Shown here: positions 7-11,563 of the stretch, piece after piece | Position numbering within the stretch: the stretch's first letter is position 1 | Layout: every line of letters starts with the position of its first letter | Source: an uncultured Clostridia bacterium | GTDB taxonomy: Bacteria; Bacillota; Clostridia; Oscillospirales; Ruminococcaceae | DNA: 64,000 nt | Direction: 5' to 3' | NCBI GenBank assembly: GCA_947586185.1 | Contig: CANPXN010000003.1 | Location: 1 to 64,000, forward strand | Translations under genes and position numbers: made by a program | The notes under the pieces: generated by a model | What the model saw: the letters and a program-made list of their open reading frames with translations, nothing else | What the model was told of the DNA's origin: nothing | The model's database searches: none

Positions 7-3000
7 ATGTCAGGATTTTATACGGAAGCTGACTATGAGAATTCCATCATAGAGCTATTCCAAGGAATGGGATACCGTCATGTTTACGGCCCTGATATTG
101 AAAGGGATTTTAACAACCCTCTATATGAAGATGAGCTGACGGACGCGCTGCATCGCCTGAATCCCTCTATGCCGGAAGATGCGATCAGCGACGCCCTGTT
201 CAAGTTGAAAAATTTCGAGAATGCCGAACTGGTCCAGAAAAATGCTGTCTTCATGGATTATATTCAGCATGGCGTTGAAGTGCGCTATTTTGTCAAGGGC
301 GAGGAGCGCTCCGGCCTCGTATACCTTGTTGACTACAAGAATCCTGACAATAACTCTTTTATCGTTGCAAACCAGTGGACCTTTATTGAAAACAGCAATA
401 AGCGTCCGGATGTCCTCCTCTTCTTGAATGGCCTTCCGGTTGTACTTGTAGAGCTGAAGTCCCCATCGCGGGAAGAGACAGATGCTTCCGAAGCATATTT
501 GCAGATCAGAAACTATATGCAGGAGATCCCGTCGATGTTCATTTATAACTGCATCTGCGTTATGAGCGACCATCTAACCTCAAAGGCAGGAACGATTACT
601 TCTGGCGAAGACCGCTTCATGGAGTGGAAAACCAAGGATGGAAGTTATGAGAACACTCAGTACGCACAGTTTGATACTTTCTTTGAGGGTATCTTTGCCC
701 GTGAACGCTTGCTGGACATTATAAAGAACTTTATCTGCTTCTCCAATGAAGGATTAAAGCAGTTTAAAATACTAGCTGGATACCATCAGTATTTCGCGGT
801 CAACAAAGCGGTTGAGTCTACGAGACACGCCACCGAGACAGACGGAAAAGGTGGTGTATTCTGGCATACACAGGGCAGCGGAAAATCCCTGTCGATGGTT
901 TTCTACGCTCATCTGCTGCAAGAAGCACTGAGCAGCCCGACAATCGTGGTACTTACGGATCGAAACGATCTGGATGATCAGCTGTTTGGCCAGTTTGCAA
1001 AGTGTAAGGATTTTCTGCGTCAGGAGCCGTTGCACGCTGAGAGCCGGGAACACTTGAAGTCCCTGCTCGATGGCAGACAGGCAAACGGCATCATCTTCAC
1101 CACAATGCAGAAATTCGAGGAATCCCATGAGCCTCTGTCCGAGCGTAGGAACATTGTTGTCATGGCTGATGAAGCGCATCGTGGGCAGTATGGCTTAAAA
1201 GAAAAGGTCGATGCTGAGACCGGTAAAATCAAGATCGGCACAGCGCGAATCATCCGTAACAGCTTACCGAATGCTACGTACATAGGTTTCACTGGTACAC
1301 CTATTTCCATGAAAGATAGAAGCACCCGTGAAGTCTTCGGAGATTACATTGACGTCTATGATATGACGCAGGCGGTCGAGGACGGCGCTACCCGTCCGGT
1401 ATATTACGAGAGCCGTGTTATTAAACTCAAGCTGGATGAGGCTACACTACGCCTGATTGATACCGAGTATGACATCATGGCTAATAACGCCGATCCTGAT
1501 GTTATCGCCAAGAGCAAACGTGAACTGGGCCAGATGGAAGCTATCCTCGGAAATGACCAGACAATCGCTTCATTGGTTGATGATATTCTCGATCACTACG
1601 AGAATTATCGTGCAAATCTGCTCACCGGCAAGGCGATGATTGTTGCCTATTCCCGCGCCATTGCAATGAAGATCTATGACCGTATCATGCAGCTCAGACC
1701 GTCATGGACAGAGAAGGTCGCTGTTGTTATGACGGAAAGCAATAAGGACCCGGAGGAGTGGCGTGCCGTTATCGGAAACAAACGTCACAAGGATGAGCTT
1801 GCGAAAAAGTTTAAAGACAACGATAGTCCGCTTAAGATTGCAATTGTCGTAGACATGTGGCTGACGGGATTTGATGTTCCTTCGCTGGCCACGATGTATG
1901 TTTATAAGCCAATGCAGGGGTACAATCTTATGCAGGCAATTGCACGTGTAAACCGTGTATTTGGAGATAAAGAAGGCGGACTGGTTGTAGATTATGTCGG
2001 CATCGCAGCTGCGCTTAAAGAAGCGATGAACGATTATACCTCCCGTGATAAGAAGAACTACGGTGACACCGATGTTGCAAAGGTGGCCTATCCGAAGTTC
2101 TTGGAGAAACTCTCCATCTGCCGCGATATTTTCCACGGGTACGATTATTCCAAATTTACTATTGGGACTGACCTTGAGCGATCAAGGGCTATCAGTGGTG
2201 CGGTTAACTTTATTGTTGCCGTTGACAAAGAGCGTGAGCGTGAAGATTTCCTAAAGGAAGCCCTTATGCTCCGTCAGGCGCTGTCGCTCTGCTCATCGTT
2301 AGTAGAGGAAAGCCTACGAATCGAAGCTGCATTCTTTGAGTCGGTCCGTGTGCTTGTTATGCGCCTTATGAATCAGGGCGAGGGAAAGAAAATCTCCCTG
2401 CCGGAAATGAATGCGAGAATAAATGCACTCCTCAGCCAGAGCGTGAAGAGCGAAGGTGTCATAAATCTGTTTTCTGACGTATCGGAGGAGTTCTCGCTGT
2501 TTGATCCGAAATTCCTTGAGGAAATCTCCAAGATGAAGGAGAAAAACCTCGCGGTTGAATTACTGAAGAAGCTGATTGCTGAGCAGGTGCAGATTTACCG
2601 TCGTACCAATGTAGTCAAGTCAGAGAAATTCAGCGAGATCATCCAAAGCGCCATGAACCGTTATCTGAACGGTATGCTTACAAATGAAGAAGTCATTCAA
2701 GAGCTCCTCAATTTGGCAAAACAGATTGCGGTAGCTCAGAGGGAAGGCGACCAGCTTGGCCTGACAGCTGATGAGCTGGCATTCTATGACGCCTTGACAA
2801 AACCACAAGCAATTAAGGACTTCTATGAAAACGAGGAGCTGATAGCCATCACAAAAGAGTTGGCAGATACCCTCCGTAAGAACCGCACGATTGACTGGCA
2901 GAAGCGTGACTCAGCCAGAGCAAAAATGCGGATGATGATCAAAAAGCTCCTTAAGAAACATCGCTATCCACCGGAAGGTATGGACGATGCTGTTCAGACC

Positions 3001-3141
3001 GTAATGACGCAGTGTGAATTGTGGACGGACAATGCAGATATGGAACAGCGCGAACACAAGGTTGCTAATTATTCCTTTCGGCCAGAGCAGAATTTAAGTA
3101 TGGTTGCTGAAGAACCTGCGCCATATGGAAAGAAAGAATAA
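7..3141 (+). CDS. hsdR: Type I restriction enzyme, R (motor/nuclease) subunit
   Basis: HsdR is the ATP-driven translocase and nuclease of a type I restriction-modification complex (HsdR2M2S), which cuts unmodified foreign DNA. The N-terminal nuclease domain carries a PD-(D/E)xK signature: R133-P-D135 and E149-L-K151. Two RecA-like helicase lobes follow, with Walker A HTQGSGKS at 287-294, DEAH at 388-391 and GFTGTP at 427-432. After about residue 700 there is a long helical C-terminal region. At 1044 aa it is full length for the family. The first Met lies six bases inside the window, so no ribosome binding site can be seen; hsdM and hsdS, if present, lie to the left. The next gene starts 16 bp downstream on the same strand, so they are probably co-transcribed. 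Base composition is visibly richer in G+C than the chromosome after 12 kb, which suggests transfer. Confidence 0.95.
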   Translation: MSGFYTEADYENSIIELFQGMGYRHVYGPDIERDFNNPLYEDELTDALHRLNPSMPEDAISDALFKLKNFENAELVQKNAVFMDYIQHGVEVRYFVKGEERSGLVYLVDYKNPDNNSFIVANQWTFIENSNKRPDVLLFLNGLPVVLVELKSPSREETDASEAYLQIRNYMQEIPSMFIYNCICVMSDHLTSKAGTITSGEDRFMEWKTKDGSYENTQYAQFDTFFEGIFARERLLDIIKNFICFSNEGLKQFKILAGYHQYFAVNKAVESTRHATETDGKGGVFWHTQGSGKSLSMVFYAHLLQEALSSPTIVVLTDRNDLDDQLFGQFAKCKDFLRQEPLHAESREHLKSLLDGRQANGIIFTTMQKFEESHEPLSERRNIVVMADEAHRGQYGLKEKVDAETGKIKIGTARIIRNSLPNATYIGFTGTPISMKDRSTREVFGDYIDVYDMTQAVEDGATRPVYYESRVIKLKLDEATLRLIDTEYDIMANNADPDVIAKSKRELGQMEAILGNDQTIASLVDDILDHYENYRANLLTGKAMIVAYSRAIAMKIYDRIMQLRPSWTEKVAVVMTESNKDPEEWRAVIGNKRHKDELAKKFKDNDSPLKIAIVVDMWLTGFDVPSLATMYVYKPMQGYNLMQAIARVNRVFGDKEGGLVVDYVGIAAALKEAMNDYTSRDKKNYGDTDVAKVAYPKFLEKLSICRDIFHGYDYSKFTIGTDLERSRAISGAVNFIVAVDKEREREDFLKEALMLRQALSLCSSLVEESLRIEAAFFESVRVLVMRLMNQGEGKKISLPEMNARINALLSQSVKSEGVINLFSDVSEEFSLFDPKFLEEISKMKEKNLAVELLKKLIAEQVQIYRRTNVVKSEKFSEIIQSAMNRYLNGMLTNEEVIQELLNLAKQIAVAQREGDQLGLTADELAFYDALTKPQAIKDFYENEELIAITKELADTLRKNRTIDWQKRDSARAKMRMMIKKLLKKHRYPPEGMDDAVQTVMTQCELWTDNADMEQREHKVANYSFRPEQNLSMVAEEPAPYGKKE

Positions 3142-3157: not shown

Positions 3158-5227
3158 ATGGACGCACGTAAAGGTAACATCTATGAGATTTTAAACGGGA
3201 ACAAGCAGTTCCTGATTCCGGTTTATCAGCGATATTACAGCTGGGATATCGAACAATGTACCCGCCTCTGGAATGACATCGTCGAGATGCAGAAGAAGGG
3301 AAAAGTGGGCCATTTTGTCGGTTCCATCGTGAATATTGCGGAGCAGGCAATGCCGACCGGAGTCCAGAAATATATGATTATAGACGGCCAGCAACGAATG
3401 ACTACGTTGTCTTTGCTCCTGCTTGCCCTGCGTGATTATGCCATAAAGAATCCGAACGATACAACCATCAATGCCCGTCGCATTGATAATATGCTTCTGA
3501 AAAACGAGTACGAAAGTGGCGATGAACGCTATAAGCTGCTCTTAACATAAACTGATCGGGATATCTTGATGAGGCTTGTAGAGGAAAAGCCTATCCCTGA
3601 AGACACGCGATCAAGGCTTCTCGACAACTATAAATTCTTTGCGGGGAAGATTGCTGATAAAGAATTACAGCCTGCCGAGGTGTACGAGTCGATTGGCAAG
3701 CTGCAGATCGTCAATATAACACTGGACCGCTCAGTTGATGATGCACAGGCTATTTTCGAGAGCTTGAATTCCACCGGTAAAGAATTGTCTGAATCTGACT
3801 TGATCCGGAACTATGTTCTTATGGGTCTGGAGCCTACGGAGCAGACATATGTCTACGAGTATCTATGGCGGCCTATGGAATTGCTGTTCGTTTATGAGAC
3901 GCAGGATTCCGTCATGGATAGATTTTTCCGCGATTACCTGACAATGAAGATTACACGTATTCCTAAGCAGGACCGCGTGTATGAAGAGTTCAAGCTCTAT
4001 CATCTGAATTGCGAGTTCGGCACTATCCGTGAGTTGTGTCAGGACCTGCTGACCTACGCCAAGTATTACACCGATATGGTATTCAAGAGGAGCAGCAATC
4101 CCTCACTCAAATCCTTGTATGAGGACATCAACGACCTTCGTATGGAAGTCTCATATCCTTTCCTGCTTAAAGTGCATAATGATTATGCCGAGGGTATCAT
4201 TTCCGAGGATGATCTGAAGTTGATTATCCGGCTTTGCATCAGCTATGTCTTCCGGCGCAGCATCTGTGATATACCGACAAATTCTCTGAATAAGACATTT
4301 GCTACACTGAGAAATGAAATCAGACCGGATGACTACGTCAATTCTATCAAGGCTTTCTTTGTAATGCGAGACGATTATAAAGAGTTCCCGAACGATGATA
4401 AGTTCACAGCTGCCTTTGTGTCGAGAGATATTTACAACATGCGCTCCCGTAACTTTATCCTCAGTCATCTGGAGAACTATGGAAACAAGGCTCCGATCAT
4501 CATTGAGAATTATACGATTGAGCATATTATGCCTCAGAACAGCAGTCTAAGCCAGGAGTGGCAACAGATGCTTGGAGCGAATTGGCGCGAAGTACAAAAG
4601 ACCTATCTGCACACCATCGGCAATCTGACGCTTACAGCGTATAATTCAGAAATGAGCGACCATCCGTTTATGGTCAAGATGGATATGGAGGGCGGCTTTA
4701 AGGAAAGTGCACTCCGCTTGAATGCCTATGTTGTTAAACTCACGGAATGGAATGAACAAAGAATAAAAGAACGCGCCTCGCTGCTGGCAGATAAGGCTAA
4801 ACGAATCTGGGCGTACCCGGATATGACCGCTGCAGAGCTGGCTCCTTATCAGACGGTGGAAAAACCTGCAGAGCGTTACAGCCTCGCAACTTATGATACA
4901 AACGTTTTCACGAAAACGCTGTTTGAAGTTCTTGATCGTCGAATCCAGAATCTCTCTCCAGATGTGAAACGCGAGTTCAAAAAACTGTACGTTGCCTATA
5001 AGCTGGATACCAATTTCGTGGATATTGTTTTCCAGAAACAGAGACTCCGTATTTCTGTAAATATGAAGTTCTCAGAGGTGATCGATCCGAATGGTATATG
5101 CCGTGACATAACCGGCCTCGGCAGATGGGGCAACGGCGATGTTGAGCTTTATATGGAGCACACATCGGATGTCGATCAGATCATGGAGATCGTGGAGCAG
5201 TCCTACAGACTTCAGGCGGATGAGTGA
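3158..5227 (+). pseudogene. GmrSD-like DUF262/DUF1524/DUF5655 nuclease, interrupted by an in-frame stop
   Basis: Two open frames (3158-3550 and from 3566) lie in the same reading frame and are separated only by a TAA at 3548-3550. Read through, they give one protein of about 689 aa. The N-terminal DUF262 (GmrS-like) domain shows VYQRYYSW near residue 20 and IDGQQRMTTL near residue 75. The middle is helical. A DUF1524 (GmrD-like) HNH nuclease follows, with EHIMPQ (H456 in read-through numbering) and HTIGNLTLT. The C-terminus resembles DUF5655 (GICRDITGLGRWGNGDVE). Family members of this build are type IV, modification-dependent restriction enzymes. The residues around the stop (LLT*TDRD) suggest a Gln codon CAA changed to TAA. 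The GGAGG-type ribosome binding site before 3158 is intact. It could be a true nonsense mutation, a sequencing error, or a split GmrS/GmrD pair restarting at 3566, although no good ribosome binding site is seen there. Confidence 0.85.
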
Positions 5228-5279: not shown

Positions 5280-6566
5280 ATGGTTTATAATACTTTTATA
5301 AAATGTCAGGTGTGCGGAAGCATTACCAGAATCCGATTACAGGTTGGATGGCAAGAAGAACATCCTATTGTTCTGGCTTGCGGTAAATGTGGTACTTCCT
5401 TATCTGGCAGCGTTAAGATAGGACAAGACTGTCCGGGGTTGAAGTTTTCTTTTGACAATGCGGATGAAATCCAGGATGCCGAAGCTGACTACATGGTTGA
5501 ATGCTCTGGTGAATTTCCGACTGTGAAACAAGGCAAAGCAGCGGAGTTGGAAGAAGTCATAATTACTCCGTTTATCCGCTATATGAATCGTATGAAGACG
5601 GATGATTCATATGAGCAGTTCGGAAAAGCGGTATCACAGCTTAATGCAACAGAAAAGAAATGGAAGAACTACAAGAGAATCATTGACCTATTCAAAAGCA
5701 ACAGTGAATATCTTGTTCAGGAGATTCAAAAGGAATTCTCCGGACAATACTTTCAGTGCAGAGATGAGTCTGAAGTATTAAGAGCTGTTCATATGATTGA
5801 GGTTCATGGTTTTTATTCTGCGCTCAAAAAGGATATTTTAGACGATCTTTCTTTTAGCGCAGGAATTATGATACTGGACTCCACTCAGCTGAAGAGCTTA
5901 GTAACCTTCTTAAATTCACATGATGGCTACCATCTTGATGAGCTACAGGATTTAATTTATAAGGCATACGATGATTTCGTAAAAATATACCAGCGCCTTA
6001 TTCCGGCTCTTGCAATACAGTATTGCAAAGAGGATGCTTTTGATCTTGAAGTTGAAGGCTCGACAACGAGTAGCTTTGACAGTGTAAAGCAGTTTTATTT
6101 GAATGTTTATGAAGCCTTTGGGAATCTGCTTGTTATCCCGGTCGCTCTCAATAACATAAAATACAGAGCTGACGTGAATTCGATGAATCCTTTGGAAAAG
6201 AATGTATCTTCGTTGGAGGATTTTATAAAGCTCACAAAGGCATCAAGGTATCATTTCTGCTTGAACACAGAAGTCTACACCGATTTCTTGGATGTTGTAG
6301 TAAATGCAAAACTAAGAAATGCGATTGGACATAATGATGTTGAATATGACGCAGTGAGTCAGGTCATTACTTACATTCCGAATCCGAAAGACAGAACCAT
6401 AAAGAAAACGGAATACCTTCTCGAATTTGAAAATGAAGCGATGCACATGTTTCAGGCGTTATTGGGTGTTTCAGAGTACCTGTATCGCCTGAGAGAACTC
6501 TCACTTATGTATGATGGCAAAATACCACTTATGGTTCAGGAAAGAGCAAACTGGCCGAAAAAATAG
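5280..6566 (+). CDS. Zinc-ribbon protein with HEPN-like RNase motif (unknown function, defence context)
   Basis: I do not recognise a named family. The N-terminus holds a zinc ribbon with CxxC pairs at C9/C12 and C34/C37. The rest is mostly helical. Near the C-terminus the segment LRNAIGHND gives an R-x4-H motif (R346, H351), the catalytic signature of HEPN-fold ribonucleases. It follows the GmrSD-like gene by 52 bp, with a GGGGGAAG ribosome binding site. HEPN RNases in defence loci usually cut RNA upon infection; that role here is inference. The reading frame ends at a TAG after a run of six A residues. The bases just downstream encode a SEC-C zinc motif in another frame, so the true protein was probably about 22 residues longer (see the next entry). 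Confidence 0.6.
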   Translation: MVYNTFIKCQVCGSITRIRLQVGWQEEHPIVLACGKCGTSLSGSVKIGQDCPGLKFSFDNADEIQDAEADYMVECSGEFPTVKQGKAAELEEVIITPFIRYMNRMKTDDSYEQFGKAVSQLNATEKKWKNYKRIIDLFKSNSEYLVQEIQKEFSGQYFQCRDESEVLRAVHMIEVHGFYSALKKDILDDLSFSAGIMILDSTQLKSLVTFLNSHDGYHLDELQDLIYKAYDDFVKIYQRLIPALAIQYCKEDAFDLEVEGSTTSSFDSVKQFYLNVYEAFGNLLVIPVALNNIKYRADVNSMNPLEKNVSSLEDFIKLTKASRYHFCLNTEVYTDFLDVVVNAKLRNAIGHNDVEYDAVSQVITYIPNPKDRTIKKTEYLLEFENEAMHMFQALLGVSEYLYRLRELSLMYDGKIPLMVQERANWPKK

Positions 6567-6630
6567 GCCGTAATGATCCGTGTCCATATGGAAGCGGGAA
6601 AAATACAAATTCTGTCATGGGAAGAATTAG
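6566..6630 (+). pseudogene. Out-of-frame SEC-C zinc-motif tail of the preceding gene
   Basis: Starting at 6566 the DNA encodes GRNDPCPYGSGK and, after one missing base, YKFCHGKN and a stop. Together this is a textbook C-terminal SEC-C motif. Two one-base insertions are needed to attach it to the upstream 428-residue frame: one in the A run before 6564 (six A present, seven needed) and one in the A run at 6599-6603 (five present, six needed). The match to the SEC-C pattern is so good that chance is unlikely. Either homopolymer slips disabled the tail in the genome, or they are assembly errors. In other proteins SEC-C binds zinc and often mediates protein or nucleic-acid contacts. Confidence 0.75.
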
Positions 6631-6678: not shown

Positions 6679-7176
6679 GGCAATAAAATTTGCTGCTCCC
6701 GAAAAAGTCCCATTTCATGCGGATTTACGAAACCAGTTGATATATTCCCGCTAACGAACGGACTTGAAACAGATGGACAAAAATCGGATATTTTTCGATG
6801 TAAACTGTTGGACTTGTTCCCGCGAACGAGCGCAGCCGCTGACATTAAAATGAACGTGTCAAGCCACGTTGAGACTGTATGTTTATTGTCCAAACTTCAT
6901 GCAGACCAACATATCGAGGTAGAGCTGAAGATGGACGAGCTTGATTTGACGGCTGCGGAGAGCAAAGCCACCTATGAGGAAATCAAGGAGTATGTACTGG
7001 AGCATACGGGATTAAAGGTCAGCAGCTTATATATCGCACAGGTAAAGCAGAAGTGCGGTATTATTGAGAGGGTAAACTATAATCCGCCAAAATCGGAAAA
7101 TTCCAGACAGCCGAAATGCCCGCCAGAGAAAGAAAAGGCTATAAAGGATGCGTTAGAGCATTTTCGTATGATTTGA
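6679..7176 (+). pseudogene. C-terminal fragment of RlmD-like 23S rRNA (uracil-5) methyltransferase of a conjugative element
   Basis: The frame is open from 6679 but has no convincing start or ribosome binding site; a TTG at 6808 is the first possible initiation codon. From about 6850 the product reads MNVSSHVETVCLLSKLH and then a tail with ATYEEIKEYV, GLKVSSLYIAQVK and CPPEKEKAI. This is the C-terminal end plus element-specific extension of RlmD-family methyltransferases carried by Firmicutes conjugative elements. SHVETV is the usual end of the catalytic domain. The SAM-binding and catalytic Cys regions are absent, so the fragment cannot be an active methyltransferase. It could still be expressed as a small DNA- or RNA-contacting protein. 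Confidence 0.6.
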
Positions 7177-7220
7177 TAGTATCTCAGAAATGGCGGATAC
7201 TTTTTCATGGATTTGCACCT

Positions 7221-7250
7221 TTGAGTGTTATCGTCAGTTTCTTGTATAAT
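7221..7250 (+). promoter_or_regulatory. Sigma-A promoter for the small element gene
   Basis: TTGAGT (7221-7226), an 18-bp spacer and a perfect TATAAT (7245-7250) lie 26 bp before the ATG at 7277. Confidence 0.6.
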
Positions 7251-7276
7251 GAAGCCAAGAAAGGACGGTGGCGATT

Positions 7277-7456
7277 ATGAGAGAAAAGAAAACTCATTTG
7301 TATGTGGATAGCCAAGAAAGAACCTTGCTTTTACATAGCCTTGTGGAGCTGAAAAACCAGCTTATACAGCAGGGCAGATATACGGACTGCGTTGACGAGC
7401 TGATATTTAAGGTCGTCCACGCACCGCTTAAGAGAATGAAAATTGAATATGTCTAA
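7277..7456 (+). CDS. Small conserved conjugative-element protein (59 aa), unknown function
   Basis: The protein begins MREKKTHLYVDSQERTLLL and is charged and helical, with no cysteines in a metal-binding pattern and no membrane segment. Similar short proteins sit just upstream of parA in Firmicutes conjugative elements. I chose the ATG at 7277 because AAGGACGG lies 11 bases upstream; the in-frame GTG at 7268 is too close to that site. It has its own promoter and is followed by a strong terminator at 7469-7511, so it is a single-gene unit. A role in copy or partition control is only a guess from location. Confidence 0.7.
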   Translation: MREKKTHLYVDSQERTLLLHSLVELKNQLIQQGRYTDCVDELIFKVVHAPLKRMKIEYV

Positions 7457-7468
7457 GGCACATCACAG

Positions 7469-7511
7469 AGCCGCTTATTCTTATTGACTTTTAAGAGTAA
7501 GCGGCTTTTTT
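7469..7511 (+). terminator. Intrinsic terminator after the small element gene
   Basis: AGCCGCTTA pairs with TAAGCGGCT (9 bp, with further TTCTT/AAGAG pairing inside), followed by six T. It separates the small gene from parA. Confidence 0.85.
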
Positions 7512-7589
7512 GTGTTCTGCCGTTCTCTGGTACTGTTACATAGCCACCTTGACAAAGTGGCTAAATCTATGCGAAAGGAGGACGCACCT

Positions 7590-8411
7590 ATGTCAAATTG
7601 CAAAGTAATCGCTCTGACGAACCAGAAAGGCGGTGTCGGCAAGACCACCACAGCGGTCAATCTGGGTGTAAGTCTGGCACAGCAGGGCAAGAAAGTCCTG
7701 CTCATTGATGCCGATGCACAGGCAAATCTCACAATGTCGCTCGGCTACGACAGACCAGATGATTTGTCGGATACGCTTTCAAGCATCATGCAGGACGTGA
7801 TAGACGATAAGCCTGCCAATGTCCAGAAAGCCATCCTGCACCATGACGAGGGCGTTGACCTGCTCCCGTCCAATATTGAACTGTCGGGACTGGAAGTAAG
7901 GCTCATTAACGCCATAAGCCGTGAAAGTGTGCTGAAAACCTGCATCAACGATGTAAAGAAGAATTATGATGTGGTTCTGGTGGACTGTATGCCGAGTTTA
8001 GGTATGCTGACCATCAACGCACTTGCGGCGGCTGACAGCGTGGTTATCCCGACACAGCCCCATTACCTTTCCGCAAAAGGATTAGAGCTGTTGCTTCGCT
8101 CTGTATCAAAGGTCAAGCGGCAGATAAATCCCAAGCTGCGGATTGACGGTATCTTGATGACGATGGTAATGCCACGCACGAACATCTCTAAGGAGATTAC
8201 CGAAACGGTAAAGAGTGCCTACGGGCAGAGGATTAAAGTCTTTGATGCACAGATACCCCACTCTATCCGTGCAGTGGAAGCCACCGCAGAGGGCAAGAGC
8301 ATTTTTGCCTACGACAAAGGCGGCAAGGTAGCCGCAGCATATGAACAGTTTGCAAAGGAGGTGGCAGAAATTGGCGAGAAACAAAAAAATCGAGCTGACC
8401 GCATACGATGA
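7590..8411 (+). CDS. parA: ParA-family partition ATPase
   Basis: A Walker-type ATPase that, with ParB and a DNA site, segregates plasmids or excised conjugative elements. The deviant Walker A KGGVGKTT is at residues 14-21; LLIDADAQANLT and VVLVDCMPSLGML are the Walker A' and B regions. At 273 aa it has the size of the short ParA/Soj (MinD-like) type without an N-terminal DNA-binding domain. The ATG at 7590 follows AAAGGAGG; an earlier ATG at 7512 lies inside the preceding terminator region and is rejected. It overlaps parB by 41 bases. Confidence 0.95.
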   Translation: MSNCKVIALTNQKGGVGKTTTAVNLGVSLAQQGKKVLLIDADAQANLTMSLGYDRPDDLSDTLSSIMQDVIDDKPANVQKAILHHDEGVDLLPSNIELSGLEVRLINAISRESVLKTCINDVKKNYDVVLVDCMPSLGMLTINALAAADSVVIPTQPHYLSAKGLELLLRSVSKVKRQINPKLRIDGILMTMVMPRTNISKEITETVKSAYGQRIKVFDAQIPHSIRAVEATAEGKSIFAYDKGGKVAAAYEQFAKEVAEIGEKQKNRADRIR

Positions 8412-9315
8412 CCTCTTTGAAACTGACGAGAGCCATGCAGAAGCGAAGTTAAGTAAAATACGGGAAATCCCCATTTTCCAGATTGACGAGTTTCCAGACC
8501 ATCCGTTCAAGGTTTTAATGAATGAGGATATGGAGCAGCTTGTGGAAAGTGTCAGACGGAGCGGCATAATGACCCCTGCGACGGTTCGGCAGAAAGAAGA
8601 TGGGCGGTATGAGCTAATCAGCGGTCACAGGCGGAAAAAGGCTTGTGAGCTTGCAGGGCTTGAAACGCTGAAATGCGAGGTTAAGGAGCTGACCCATGAC
8701 GAAGCGGTTATTGTTATGGTCGAGAGTAATCTCCAACGCTCTACTATCCTGCCAAGTGAGAAAGCCTTTGCGTATAAGATGCGACTTGAAGCGATGAAAC
8801 GACAAGGTGAGCGGAGTGATTTAACTTCTCCACCAGTGGTGGAGAAGTCAGCAGGCAAAAAAGCCTTATCGGTTTCAAAAATTGGCAAGGACACAGGCGA
8901 TAGCCATGAGCAGGTACGCCGATATATCCGCTTGACTGAGCTTGTACCCGAAATTCTGCAAATGGTAGACGAACGCCAGATTGCGTTCCGTCCTGCGGTG
9001 GAGATTTCCTATCTCTCCGAGGAACAGCAGTACACGCTCTTAGAAGCGATGGGCTACAACGATGCCACGCCCTCTCTTGCACAGGCTATCAAGATGAAGA
9101 AGTTCATGCAGGAGGGCAAGCTCACGGACGAGGTTATCCAGTCCATCATGCAGGAGGAAAAGCCGAACCAGAAAGAAAAGCCTGCGTTCAAGGACGAGCG
9201 GATAACCAAACTCATCCCAAAGTCAATCCCCAGAGGGCAGGAAACGGATTTTGTGGTAAAGGCGTTGGAGTTTTATAACCGACACCTGCAACGGCAGCGG
9301 GGGCAGGAAAGATAA
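8371..9315 (+). CDS. parB: ParB-family partition protein
   Basis: ParB binds centromere-like sites and stimulates the ParA ATPase. The N-terminal ParB/Srx domain shows NEDMEQLVESVRRSGIMTP and the GHRRKKAC box, followed by ESNLQRSTILPSEKAFAYK. A helix-turn-helix (KIGKDTGDSHEQVRRYIRL) is at about residues 165-190. The start is probably TTG at 8371: AAAGGAGG (8354-8361) stands 9 bases upstream, and 41 bases of overlap with parA suggest translational coupling. The ATG at 8341 has no ribosome binding site. Length 314 aa is normal. No parS repeats were seen nearby. Confidence 0.93.
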   Translation: MARNKKIELTAYDDLFETDESHAEAKLSKIREIPIFQIDEFPDHPFKVLMNEDMEQLVESVRRSGIMTPATVRQKEDGRYELISGHRRKKACELAGLETLKCEVKELTHDEAVIVMVESNLQRSTILPSEKAFAYKMRLEAMKRQGERSDLTSPPVVEKSAGKKALSVSKIGKDTGDSHEQVRRYIRLTELVPEILQMVDERQIAFRPAVEISYLSEEQQYTLLEAMGYNDATPSLAQAIKMKKFMQEGKLTDEVIQSIMQEEKPNQKEKPAFKDERITKLIPKSIPRGQETDFVVKALEFYNRHLQRQRGQER

Positions 9316-9431
9316 CCGCACACTTGGGGAAAAGTATGCCCTTTGGGGGATAACAAAATTTTTTTACCATCCCCCCTCTCCACACCTCTCCCCCTTGATA
9401 CTGCCAGTAACTATCCGAGAAAAAGAAACTA

Positions 9432-9459
9432 AAGGCTGTCCAGACGGGCAGCTTTTTTC
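9432..9459 (+). terminator. Intrinsic terminator between parB and the adhesin gene
   Basis: GCTGTCC pairs with GGGCAGC (one G-T pair) around a 4-base loop and is followed by six T. It lies 117 bp after parB and 53 bp before the next start. Confidence 0.7.
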
Positions 9460-9511
9460 TGTCAGAAAATCAATCAGCAACTATCAACATGAGAACGAAC
9501 AGGAGGTAACG

Positions 9512-11563
9512 ATGAAGATTCGTAAATTATTGAGAAAGGCTGCGGCGTTTGCGTTGGCTGCGGTCACGGCATTGTCCGTCATCCCTGCCACGACAGCGTT
9601 TGCGGCGGGAGACATCGGCACGATTTCCTTTACCCACACCTATGACGGTGCAGGGAACGCCATGAGATACAATTCCAGTGCCAGCATCGGCGGTCATACC
9701 GCAGGAGGGACGGGTGAATACAAGTACCGTATGTATGTGGACGGGGAAACGGCGTTCTGCATACAGCCGGGCGTTCCGTTAAAGACGGGGAACACTCTGG
9801 CAAAGGCATCTTCCAACACATGGAATGCTTTGTCAGCAGACCAGAAAAAGGCAGTGGGGCTTGCCCTGCTCTATGGCTATCAGGGCAACAGCAGTAATTT
9901 ATCTGGAAGCGATGATGAAAAATGGCTTGCCACTCAGACCCTTGTATGGGAGTTTGTCACGGGATGCCGCAACGCCACAAGCCCGTACAGCCAGACAAGC
10001 ACGACGGTTTACAGCCTGCATTTTGGCTCAAATTATGCCAACAGCGGTGCGAGGGCGGCTTACGACCAGATTGTTTCCCTGCTGACAAGGCACAGCACGA
10101 TTCCGAGCTTCATGTCGGCGGGCAAGAAAGACATTACAAAGGAGCTTGCCTATAAGGACGGCAAATATAGCCTTACGCTGACGGATAAGAACGGCGTATT
10201 GTCCGAGTATTCCTTTACAAGCTCGGAAAGCGGCGTGAAAGTGTCCAAGTCTGGAAACAAGCTGACCATCACATCCGCAAAGGCGTTTGACGGCAAGGCG
10301 AGGATTACGGCGGAAAGGAACAACACGCCGACGGTCAGCAGCGGGGCGAAGATGATTGCCTACGGCGACCCGAACTTGCAGGACGTGGTTACGGGCGTGG
10401 AGAACGTGGATGCTGTCAAGGCGTATATCAACGTGGAAACGCCGACAGGAACGGTTGCTTTAAAAAAGACTTCCGAGGACGGCATTGTTGAGGGGATTTC
10501 CTTTACCATCAAAAGCGATGGATTCAATAAGACCGTAAAAACCGACAAGAATGGAAATATCACAGTTGAGGGCTTATTCCCTGGCACTTATACCGTAACG
10601 GAGCAGTCCATCGACCGCTATGAGCCGCAGAAAACCCAGACCGTGACAATCATCGGAGGAAAGACTTCTACGGTCACATTCAGCAATACCTTAAAGCGTG
10701 GCAGTCTGGAAGTTGTGAAAACGTCCGAGGATAATCTGGTTGAGGGCGTGAAGTTCCACCTTTACGGCACGTCTTTAAGCGGGCTTGCGGTAGATGAATA
10801 TGCCGTTACCAATGCAAAAGGCGTTGCAAAATTTGAGAATGTCCTTGTCAGCGGCAGCACGCCTTATACCCTTGAGGAAGTGGACACGGCTATCCGTTAC
10901 GTTGTCCCTGCATCCCAGACCGCCCCGATTGAGTGGAAAAAGGTCACGAACCGCAGTTTCCACAACATTTTGAAGAAATTCAATGTAACAGTGACTAAGA
11001 CCGATGTGGAAACAGGCAGCAAGCCGCAGGGGGACGCTTCCCTTGCAGGTGCGGTTTACGGCATCTATAAGGGCGAGGAACTCATTGACACCTATACCAC
11101 CGATGAAAACGGTCAGTTCACAACAAAATATTATGTATGCGGCGATGACTGGAGCATTCGTGAGATTACCCCATCCGAGGGCTATCTTCTGGACACCACA
11201 GTACACCATGTAGGTGCAGAGCCGCAGCTTTACACCGTGGAGTATAATTCGGCAAAGAATGACGTGAATGAGCAGGTCATCAAGGGCAATATCGCCATGT
11301 ACTGGATGGTGCGAGGGGCGGCAGGGGGCAGGCGGTGTTCGGAACCTGCCTTGCGGACGGAAAGCACGCCAGATGGGAAAGGTACGATGTGCTTGGCGAA
11401 ATCAAGCCAGAGAAAATGCCCGATTGGGCGAAGGAAGCCGCCGCCAGAATCCAGACGGAGGAAAAGACGAAGAAATCAAAAAGCAGGGAGGAACGTTGAT
11501 GGAGATACGACCTTTAACGCCCGAAGAACAGAAATACACCTATGCCCAGAGTATGCAGCTTGA
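9512..11563 (+). pseudogene. Thioester-domain / Cna-B (SpaA-like) surface protein with an aberrant C-terminus
   Basis: A conjugative-element adhesin. Residues 1-31 are a signal peptide (basic start, hydrophobic core, AFAA cleavage region). A thioester domain follows: C83 in AFCIQPG and Q142 in TQTLVWE are the probable Cys-Gln pair for covalent host attachment. Three SpaA/Cna-B domains follow (roughly 310-400, 400-490 and 490-600) with KKTSEDG, VKTSEDN and VTKTDVETG strand starts, the family in which Lys-Asn isopeptide bonds form. After VIKGNIA (about 11.29 kb) the sequence turns into an arginine-rich tail that is a different gene read out of frame. The usual last Cna-B domain, LPxTG-type sorting signal and membrane anchor are missing, so it would not be anchored to the wall. 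AGGAGG precedes the ATG at 9512. The N-terminal 590 residues are probably intact. Confidence 0.8.
11302..11499 (+). pseudogene. C-terminal fragment of an accessory conjugative-element gene
   Basis: Within the adhesin frame, another frame encodes a natural-looking sequence, FGTCLADGKHARWERYDVLG, then IKPEKMPDWAKEA and a charged end, with stop TGA at 11497-11499. The stop overlaps the ATG of the next gene (TGATG), as in a normal operon. I recognise it as an accessory gene of Firmicutes conjugative elements but cannot name a function. Its 5' part is lost at the deletion joint somewhere between 11.28 and 11.33 kb. Confidence 0.55.

Follow-up and report, generated by a model that had tools for sequence, protein, structure and literature searches.

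The locus described here raises two questions: whether a 428-residue protein encoded beside restriction genes is an RNA-targeting defense protein of the HEPN type, and how a SEC-C motif that lies out of frame behind its stop codon came to be separated from it. The window, meaning the whole stretch of DNA analyzed (64,000 nucleotides), comprises positions 1–64000 of contig 3 of a draft genome of 2.44 Mb in 60 contigs. The features on which the argument depends are the following.

7–3141, + strand: HsdR, type I restriction subunit, at the contig start, with the remaining operon outside the contig
3158–5227, + strand: GmrSD-like (DUF262 + DUF1524 + DUF5655, by Pfam) pseudogene with an in-frame TAA at 3548–3550
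5280–6566, + strand: ORF for the zinc-ribbon/HEPN-like protein of family phrog_13366 (matched in every scanned member), 99% identical to the 450-aa protein of the closest relative (L006) and ending before the SEC-C tail
5280–5420, + strand: N-terminal Cys4 zinc ribbon, with C9 at 5304, C12 at 5313, C34 at 5379 and C37 at 5388, from family conservation and the β-rich N-terminus of the model
5916–6524, + strand: C-terminal HEPN-like helical domain, residues 213–415, from an AlphaFold2 model; Foldseek matches without significance
6111–6113, + strand: E278, candidate helix-2 acidic active-site residue, invariant in the family and corresponding to the HEPN helix-2 acidic residue of PMC3710099
6315–6332, + strand: R346-N-A-I-G-H351, candidate HEPN catalytic motif, from conservation and its place at the end of helix 343–350
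6558–6563, + strand: A run that lacks one base relative to L006, running into the stop TAG at 6564–6566
6567–6630, + strand: untranslated SEC-C tail remnant, homologous to the tail that 11 relatives carry in frame
6588, + strand: substitution that changes the second SEC-C zinc Cys to Tyr (CPYGSGK in the window, CPCGSGK in relatives)
6599–6603, + strand: second A run, also lacking one base relative to L006

The original prediction described a 428-aa ORF with a Cys4 ribbon, an R346-x4-H351 motif and SEC-C-like sequence in other frames up to position 6630, all of which are present. The ORF begins with an ATG preceded by a purine-rich stretch, and the cysteines of its product follow the pattern C9-x2-C12...C34-x2-C37; the DUF2089 zinc-ribbon model gives weak matches in four family members. 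Pfam, NCBIfam and PADLOC hold no model of their own for the family, a PDB sequence search with the window protein returned no relative, and searches of phage records and of E. coli DNA returned no match. Searches of plasmids, IMG/VR and GTDB genomes led to a family alignment of 24 members, down to ~20% identity (L014 and L095 are apparently the same record as L006 and were not counted separately); whole-genome searches with the full alignment were dominated by the SEC-C tails of SecA and other proteins. Every aligned member matches phrog_13366 (24/24, best E 2.7e-240), and the L006 protein does so across residues 1–392 with E 1.8e-23. This phrog, and the NCBI product name “SEC-C metal-binding domain-containing protein” carried by members on Enterococcus plasmids, denote the family itself, and neither catalogue gives it a function.

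Family members are found in Lachnospiraceae and other Firmicutes, on Firmicutes mobile elements and in Rhizobium. The Enterococcus members are plasmid cargo, and together with those on Lactococcus plasmids they show 27–31% identity; further members lie on Gram-negative plasmids (Yersinia, Leclercia, Aeromonas and Pseudomonas) and in P2-like and other prophages. An enterococcal-type member on a viral contig (L089:6001-7318) has a frameshift after 88 residues and is another decayed copy.

Seven residues are invariant in all 24 members, C9, P29, C34, C37, Y273, E278 and R346, and C12, N291, N292, R296, N347, H351 and Q361 are near-invariant, with C12, N347 and H351 each present in 23. The proposed R-x4-H motif could have proved to be poorly conserved among homologs; both of its residues are kept in 23 of the 24, the sole exception being L012. 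As R-x4-H arises somewhere in 25% of shuffled window-protein sequences, the motif alone is weak evidence, but chance does not explain why it is kept in members that have diverged so far. Comparison of the window gene with that of L003 gives dN 0.020 and dS 0.180 (dN/dS ~0.11), so the core is under purifying selection.

In L006, the sequence that is 99% identical to that of the window stays in frame through an intact SEC-C to residue 450. The tail is also in frame in L003 (Listeria costaricensis), L004, L005 (Agathobaculum), L007 (Holdemanella), L008, L010, L011, L013 (Streptococcus mitis), L015 and L018, and these close relatives that bear it are 79–99% identical. SEC-C thus once belonged to the window gene and is not a chance match, and the ancestral architecture, as read from the sequences of the intact relatives, is a zinc ribbon, a HEPN-like domain and SEC-C. 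At the curated cut-off of PF02810 (SEC-C), the translated window protein gives no match, the L006 protein scores 34.8 bits, and 11 of the 24 members match. The tail is absent from the ends of L009 and L012, and SEC-C was never seen in L021, L049, L050 or any Gram-negative member, which indicates that it is an accessory part, gained or lost within the family.

The original prediction held that a perfect SEC-C is recovered when one A is added to each of two A runs. The out-of-frame remnant and the two short runs are real; the remnant, however, is not perfect, as its second zinc cysteine has been replaced by tyrosine. Relative to L006, the window copy carries 3 changes in the ~75 bases of the tail, each of them damaging to it, and 11 in the core (1277 bases), so that changes are modestly enriched in the tail (Fisher p = 0.04). 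The loss of the tail through two single-base deletions and a Cys-to-Tyr substitution looks like natural decay: one of the lesions is a substitution, relatives do not preserve the A runs, and the GmrSD gene next to it is interrupted by an in-frame stop. Natural inactivation is thus favored among the three explanations first offered for the slips, which also included long-read errors and phase variation.

If the two short A runs were assembly or sequencing errors, the real gene would be intact. Both frame losses are single-base losses in homopolymers and the genome is a draft of 60 contigs, as this explanation would have it, but we regard it as improbable because a zinc cysteine is substituted as well, the nonsense codon in the GmrSD gene is a second, independent lesion for which homopolymer slippage does not account, and between 12 and 64 kb the long housekeeping ORFs look full length and are ordinary in size despite more than 100 A/T runs of at least 6 in the window. 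Phase variation, in which the A runs would act as contingency tracts that toggle the SEC-C tail, accounts for the involvement of A-run length in both frame losses. The runs are nevertheless interrupted by G in relatives (AAGAAG, GGAAAGAAG), so that there is no conserved tract; they are short (5 and 6 bases), altering just one of them would not bring the tail back, and a zinc ligand of the tail is gone too. Phase variation was rejected on these grounds, and we give it almost no credence. Under the favored explanation, natural decay, the window copy is a case of defense-locus decay of minor interest, in which the ribbon and the HEPN-like core are still open; the shortened product may still be in working order.

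The assignment of the core to the HEPN superfamily was examined by structure prediction and profile comparison. The full-length model (pLDDT 74) places E278 within a helix of residues 263–283 and the R-x4-H motif at the end of helix 343–350. The AlphaFold2 model of the C-terminal part (pLDDT 84.6, pTM 0.81) shows a HEPN-like helix order: helix 51–71 carries E66 (E278 of the protein), the short helix 131–138 carries R134 (R346) with H139 at its end, and a hairpin at 142–153 is followed by a long helix at 168–199. The prediction would have been undermined by a model lacking a HEPN helical bundle; instead, the model contains a long helix, the E278 helix, a short helix that ends in the motif, a β-hairpin and a long last helix. 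HEPN domains have been described as having a polar residue (N, D or H) right after the arginine and an acidic residue in helix 2, usually within Ex3[KR] (PMC3710099). They also have the motif where helix 3 ends, ahead of a long helix 4, an arrangement that the topology of both models fits, more clearly that of the C-terminal one, although Foldseek gives no significant match. The family has a conserved R-x4-6-H, with N347 after the arginine in 23 of 24 members, and an acidic residue, E278, in a helix; the full Ex3[KR] form of helix 2 is found in the Gram-negative branch only (EVFSR).

Matches to known HEPN families are weak. PF18736 (HEPN pEK499_p136), the best weak Pfam match of the family, covers the motif region in L050 and L089 with E 0.0038 and 0.0069, and the scores of 17.4 and 16.6 bits fall below the curated cut-off of 26.6 bits. 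By hhalign, the family motif aligns to RNSVAH (pEK499) and RNICAH (Abi_2) with scores that exceed those of reversed controls but are not significant; probabilities against Abi_2, DUF4145, RiboL-PSP and pEK499 are at most 5% in a comparison that is underpowered, several of the comparison sequences being fragments. Scans for the PF18736, PF18739 and PF18735 families yielded so few members that no good alignment could be built for comparison. Foldseek returned only noise for the full-length model against PDB and BFVD and no significant match for the C-terminal model, the MNT/HEPN structures 7bxo, 6m6w and 1jog being among the insignificant ones. The family profile against PDB sequences gave only weak matches to FliS, another helical bundle. 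The claim of a HEPN-like motif thus holds as far as conserved residues and topology are concerned, whereas significant similarity to HEPN proteins was obtained neither by Foldseek nor by HMM comparison.

The missing similarity would also be expected if the C-terminal domain were a non-catalytic helical domain in which the invariant E, NN, R and RN...H are structural or ligand-binding, and the protein served mobile elements as a zinc-ribbon regulator or as an accessory factor that binds nucleic acid. Regulators commonly contain zinc ribbons, and the HEPN motif does not account for the near-invariance of N291, N292 and R296. On the other hand, the motif spacing, the polar residue after the arginine, the position of the motif at a helix end and the invariant acidic residue upstream all fit HEPN, and the genomic surroundings are defense contexts. 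We therefore consider a non-catalytic role unlikely. Judged from sequence and model together, the family probably belongs to the HEPN superfamily.

The original prediction placed the gene beside HsdR and GmrSD. Both are present, and GmrSD recurs beside other members; the GmrSD gene of the window is broken, however, and HsdR is incidental, being found in the window, L003 and L006 only. The neighboring gene belongs to the GmrSD/BrxU type IV restriction enzymes (PF03235 + PF07510), to which the protein studied here does not, and GmrSD genes have been described in the vicinity of type I RM genes (PMC4619093). It is 98% identical to the intact gene of L003, with one TAA inside that divides it into 130 and 553 aa; the reading frame is open at this position in L003, L006 and L129. 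In L006, the GmrSD gene (L006:3308-5374) is broken by different indels, and the partner gene has thus been lost independently at least twice.

A GmrSD-like gene adjoins a family member at 11 Firmicutes loci. It is upstream in the window and in L003, L004, L005, L006, L007, L008, L009, L013 and L018, and in L092 it is on the other side, 3′ of the gene. These GmrSD neighbors are of four divergent types, with at most 36% identity apart from a C-terminal domain common to two of them, while the family members beside different types are 79–99% identical to each other. That the gene recurs beside GmrSD genes of such different types points to a functional link. The association is one-sided and not obligatory: the gene is missing from each of 10 other GmrSD carriers, among them one whose GmrSD is 95% identical, and the Enterococcus, Gram-negative, plasmid and prophage members, as well as some from Firmicutes, are without GmrSD. 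An ORF of 175–179 aa separates GmrSD from the HEPN-like gene in L005, L008 and L018; that of L005 (L005:3305-3841, 179 aa), of unknown family, follows a GmrSD of the DUF4268 type. In Streptococcus mitis (L013:3509-10454), a DEAD/DEAH-box helicase gene precedes the GmrSD/HEPN-like pair, which is followed by RhuM.

Homology in L005 and L008 starts ~20 bp 5′ of the ATG and stops just past the stop codon, and the gene thus appears to move as a single unit of ~1.4 kb. This bears on the notion that the upstream type I restriction system has the protein as a dedicated component, which the order hsdR-gmrSD-gene in the window, L003 and L006 might suggest. Apart from this apparent mobility, most members have no HsdR nearby and L129 is an HsdR-GmrSD locus without the gene, which leaves a dedicated type I component hardly credible.

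Other members lie in further defense contexts. In a P2-like prophage (L087), the gene is located between portal and gpA, a site described as a P2 defense hotspot (PMC9122126), and adjoins IetA-IetS (IetAS). In L093, it adjoins a gene for an OLD/GajA-like nuclease, and in Rhizobium (L083), it directly overlaps lmuB of a Lamassu locus. A general role as a Lamassu effector was considered and rejected, as no annotated Lamassu genes flank three other copies from Alphaproteobacteria and, in L083, a nuclease-like N-terminus of LmuA can be read in a different frame upstream. The LmuA C-terminus is a separate ORF in that locus (L083:2280-4107). On the basis of genomic location, the family probably has a role in defense.

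We lean toward the view that the protein is a mobile HEPN-type RNase defense protein that senses through its zinc ribbon, is often paired with GmrSD in Firmicutes and is decaying in the window. The N-terminal Cys4 ribbon, together with the SEC-C zinc knuckle in the Firmicutes branch, would bind a nucleic acid or protein trigger. Upon infection, the C-terminal domain would cut RNA by means of R346-N-x3-H351, with E278 assisting, and phage replication, and probably the cell too, would be stopped (abortive infection). In Firmicutes, where the gene usually lies beside one for a modification-dependent restriction enzyme (GmrSD, DUF262-DUF1524), the pair would probably combine DNA restriction with RNA shut-off as a second line; elsewhere the protein would act alone. 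The suggestion of an undescribed RNA-targeting defense protein stands with respect to the architecture, the conserved putative catalytic residues, the defense and mobile contexts and the lack of a Pfam, NCBIfam or PADLOC model, and is weakened by HEPN homology that remains below significance.

Among the closest known systems are the HEPN RNase defense proteins of the Tha, ApeA and AbiJ/AbiF type, which likewise have a C-terminal RN-x3-H, a helical domain, an upstream acidic residue and a location on mobile elements. Tha, with R265NSIMH270, is a single-gene system that stops phage by RNA cleavage (PMC11087260). Unlike these proteins, the family has a long N-terminal half that bears a conserved Cys4 ribbon, as well as an optional SEC-C tail, and it shows no significant sequence or structure match to them. 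The HEPN survey (PMC3710099) makes no mention of SEC-C in its main text, and our literature search found no paper on SEC-C with HEPN or on a SEC-C domain in phage or plasmid work. PD-T4-2 of E. coli, tabulated as DUF262 + HEPN in PMC10952713 and shown to act in defense in PMC9519451, resembles the present pairing in that a DUF262-type domain is associated with a HEPN-type domain. It differs in that the GmrSD partner here carries DUF1524 in addition and that the two genes need not occur together, and the PADLOC models for PD-T4-2 matched neither the window protein, nor its GmrSD, nor the family.

A more specific proposal is put forward only tentatively, as a doubtful though conceivable one: in this undescribed family of zinc ribbon, HEPN domain and optional SEC-C, the HEPN RNase would be the backup arm of a swappable GmrSD, with restriction acting first and RNA shut-off following upon its failure, and the two arms would be exchanged independently among Firmicutes mobile elements. 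Should the favored reading as a mobile HEPN-type RNase hold, one uncharacterized family on enterococcal plasmids, in P2-like prophages and on mobile islands of gut bacteria would constitute an RNase-type phage defense missed by the PADLOC release searched. The placement of its genes beside unrelated GmrSD types allows a direct test of the pairing of DNA restriction with RNA shut-off.

Downstream of the gene in the window, positions 6808–9315 hold a small ORF, similar to one found 3′ of the gene in L007, followed by ParA and ParB genes; the stretch is probably the remnant of an integrative mobile element. A thioester/SpaA surface protein is encoded at 9395–11563, and its unusual basic, low-complexity C-terminal end suggests a frameshift or truncation.
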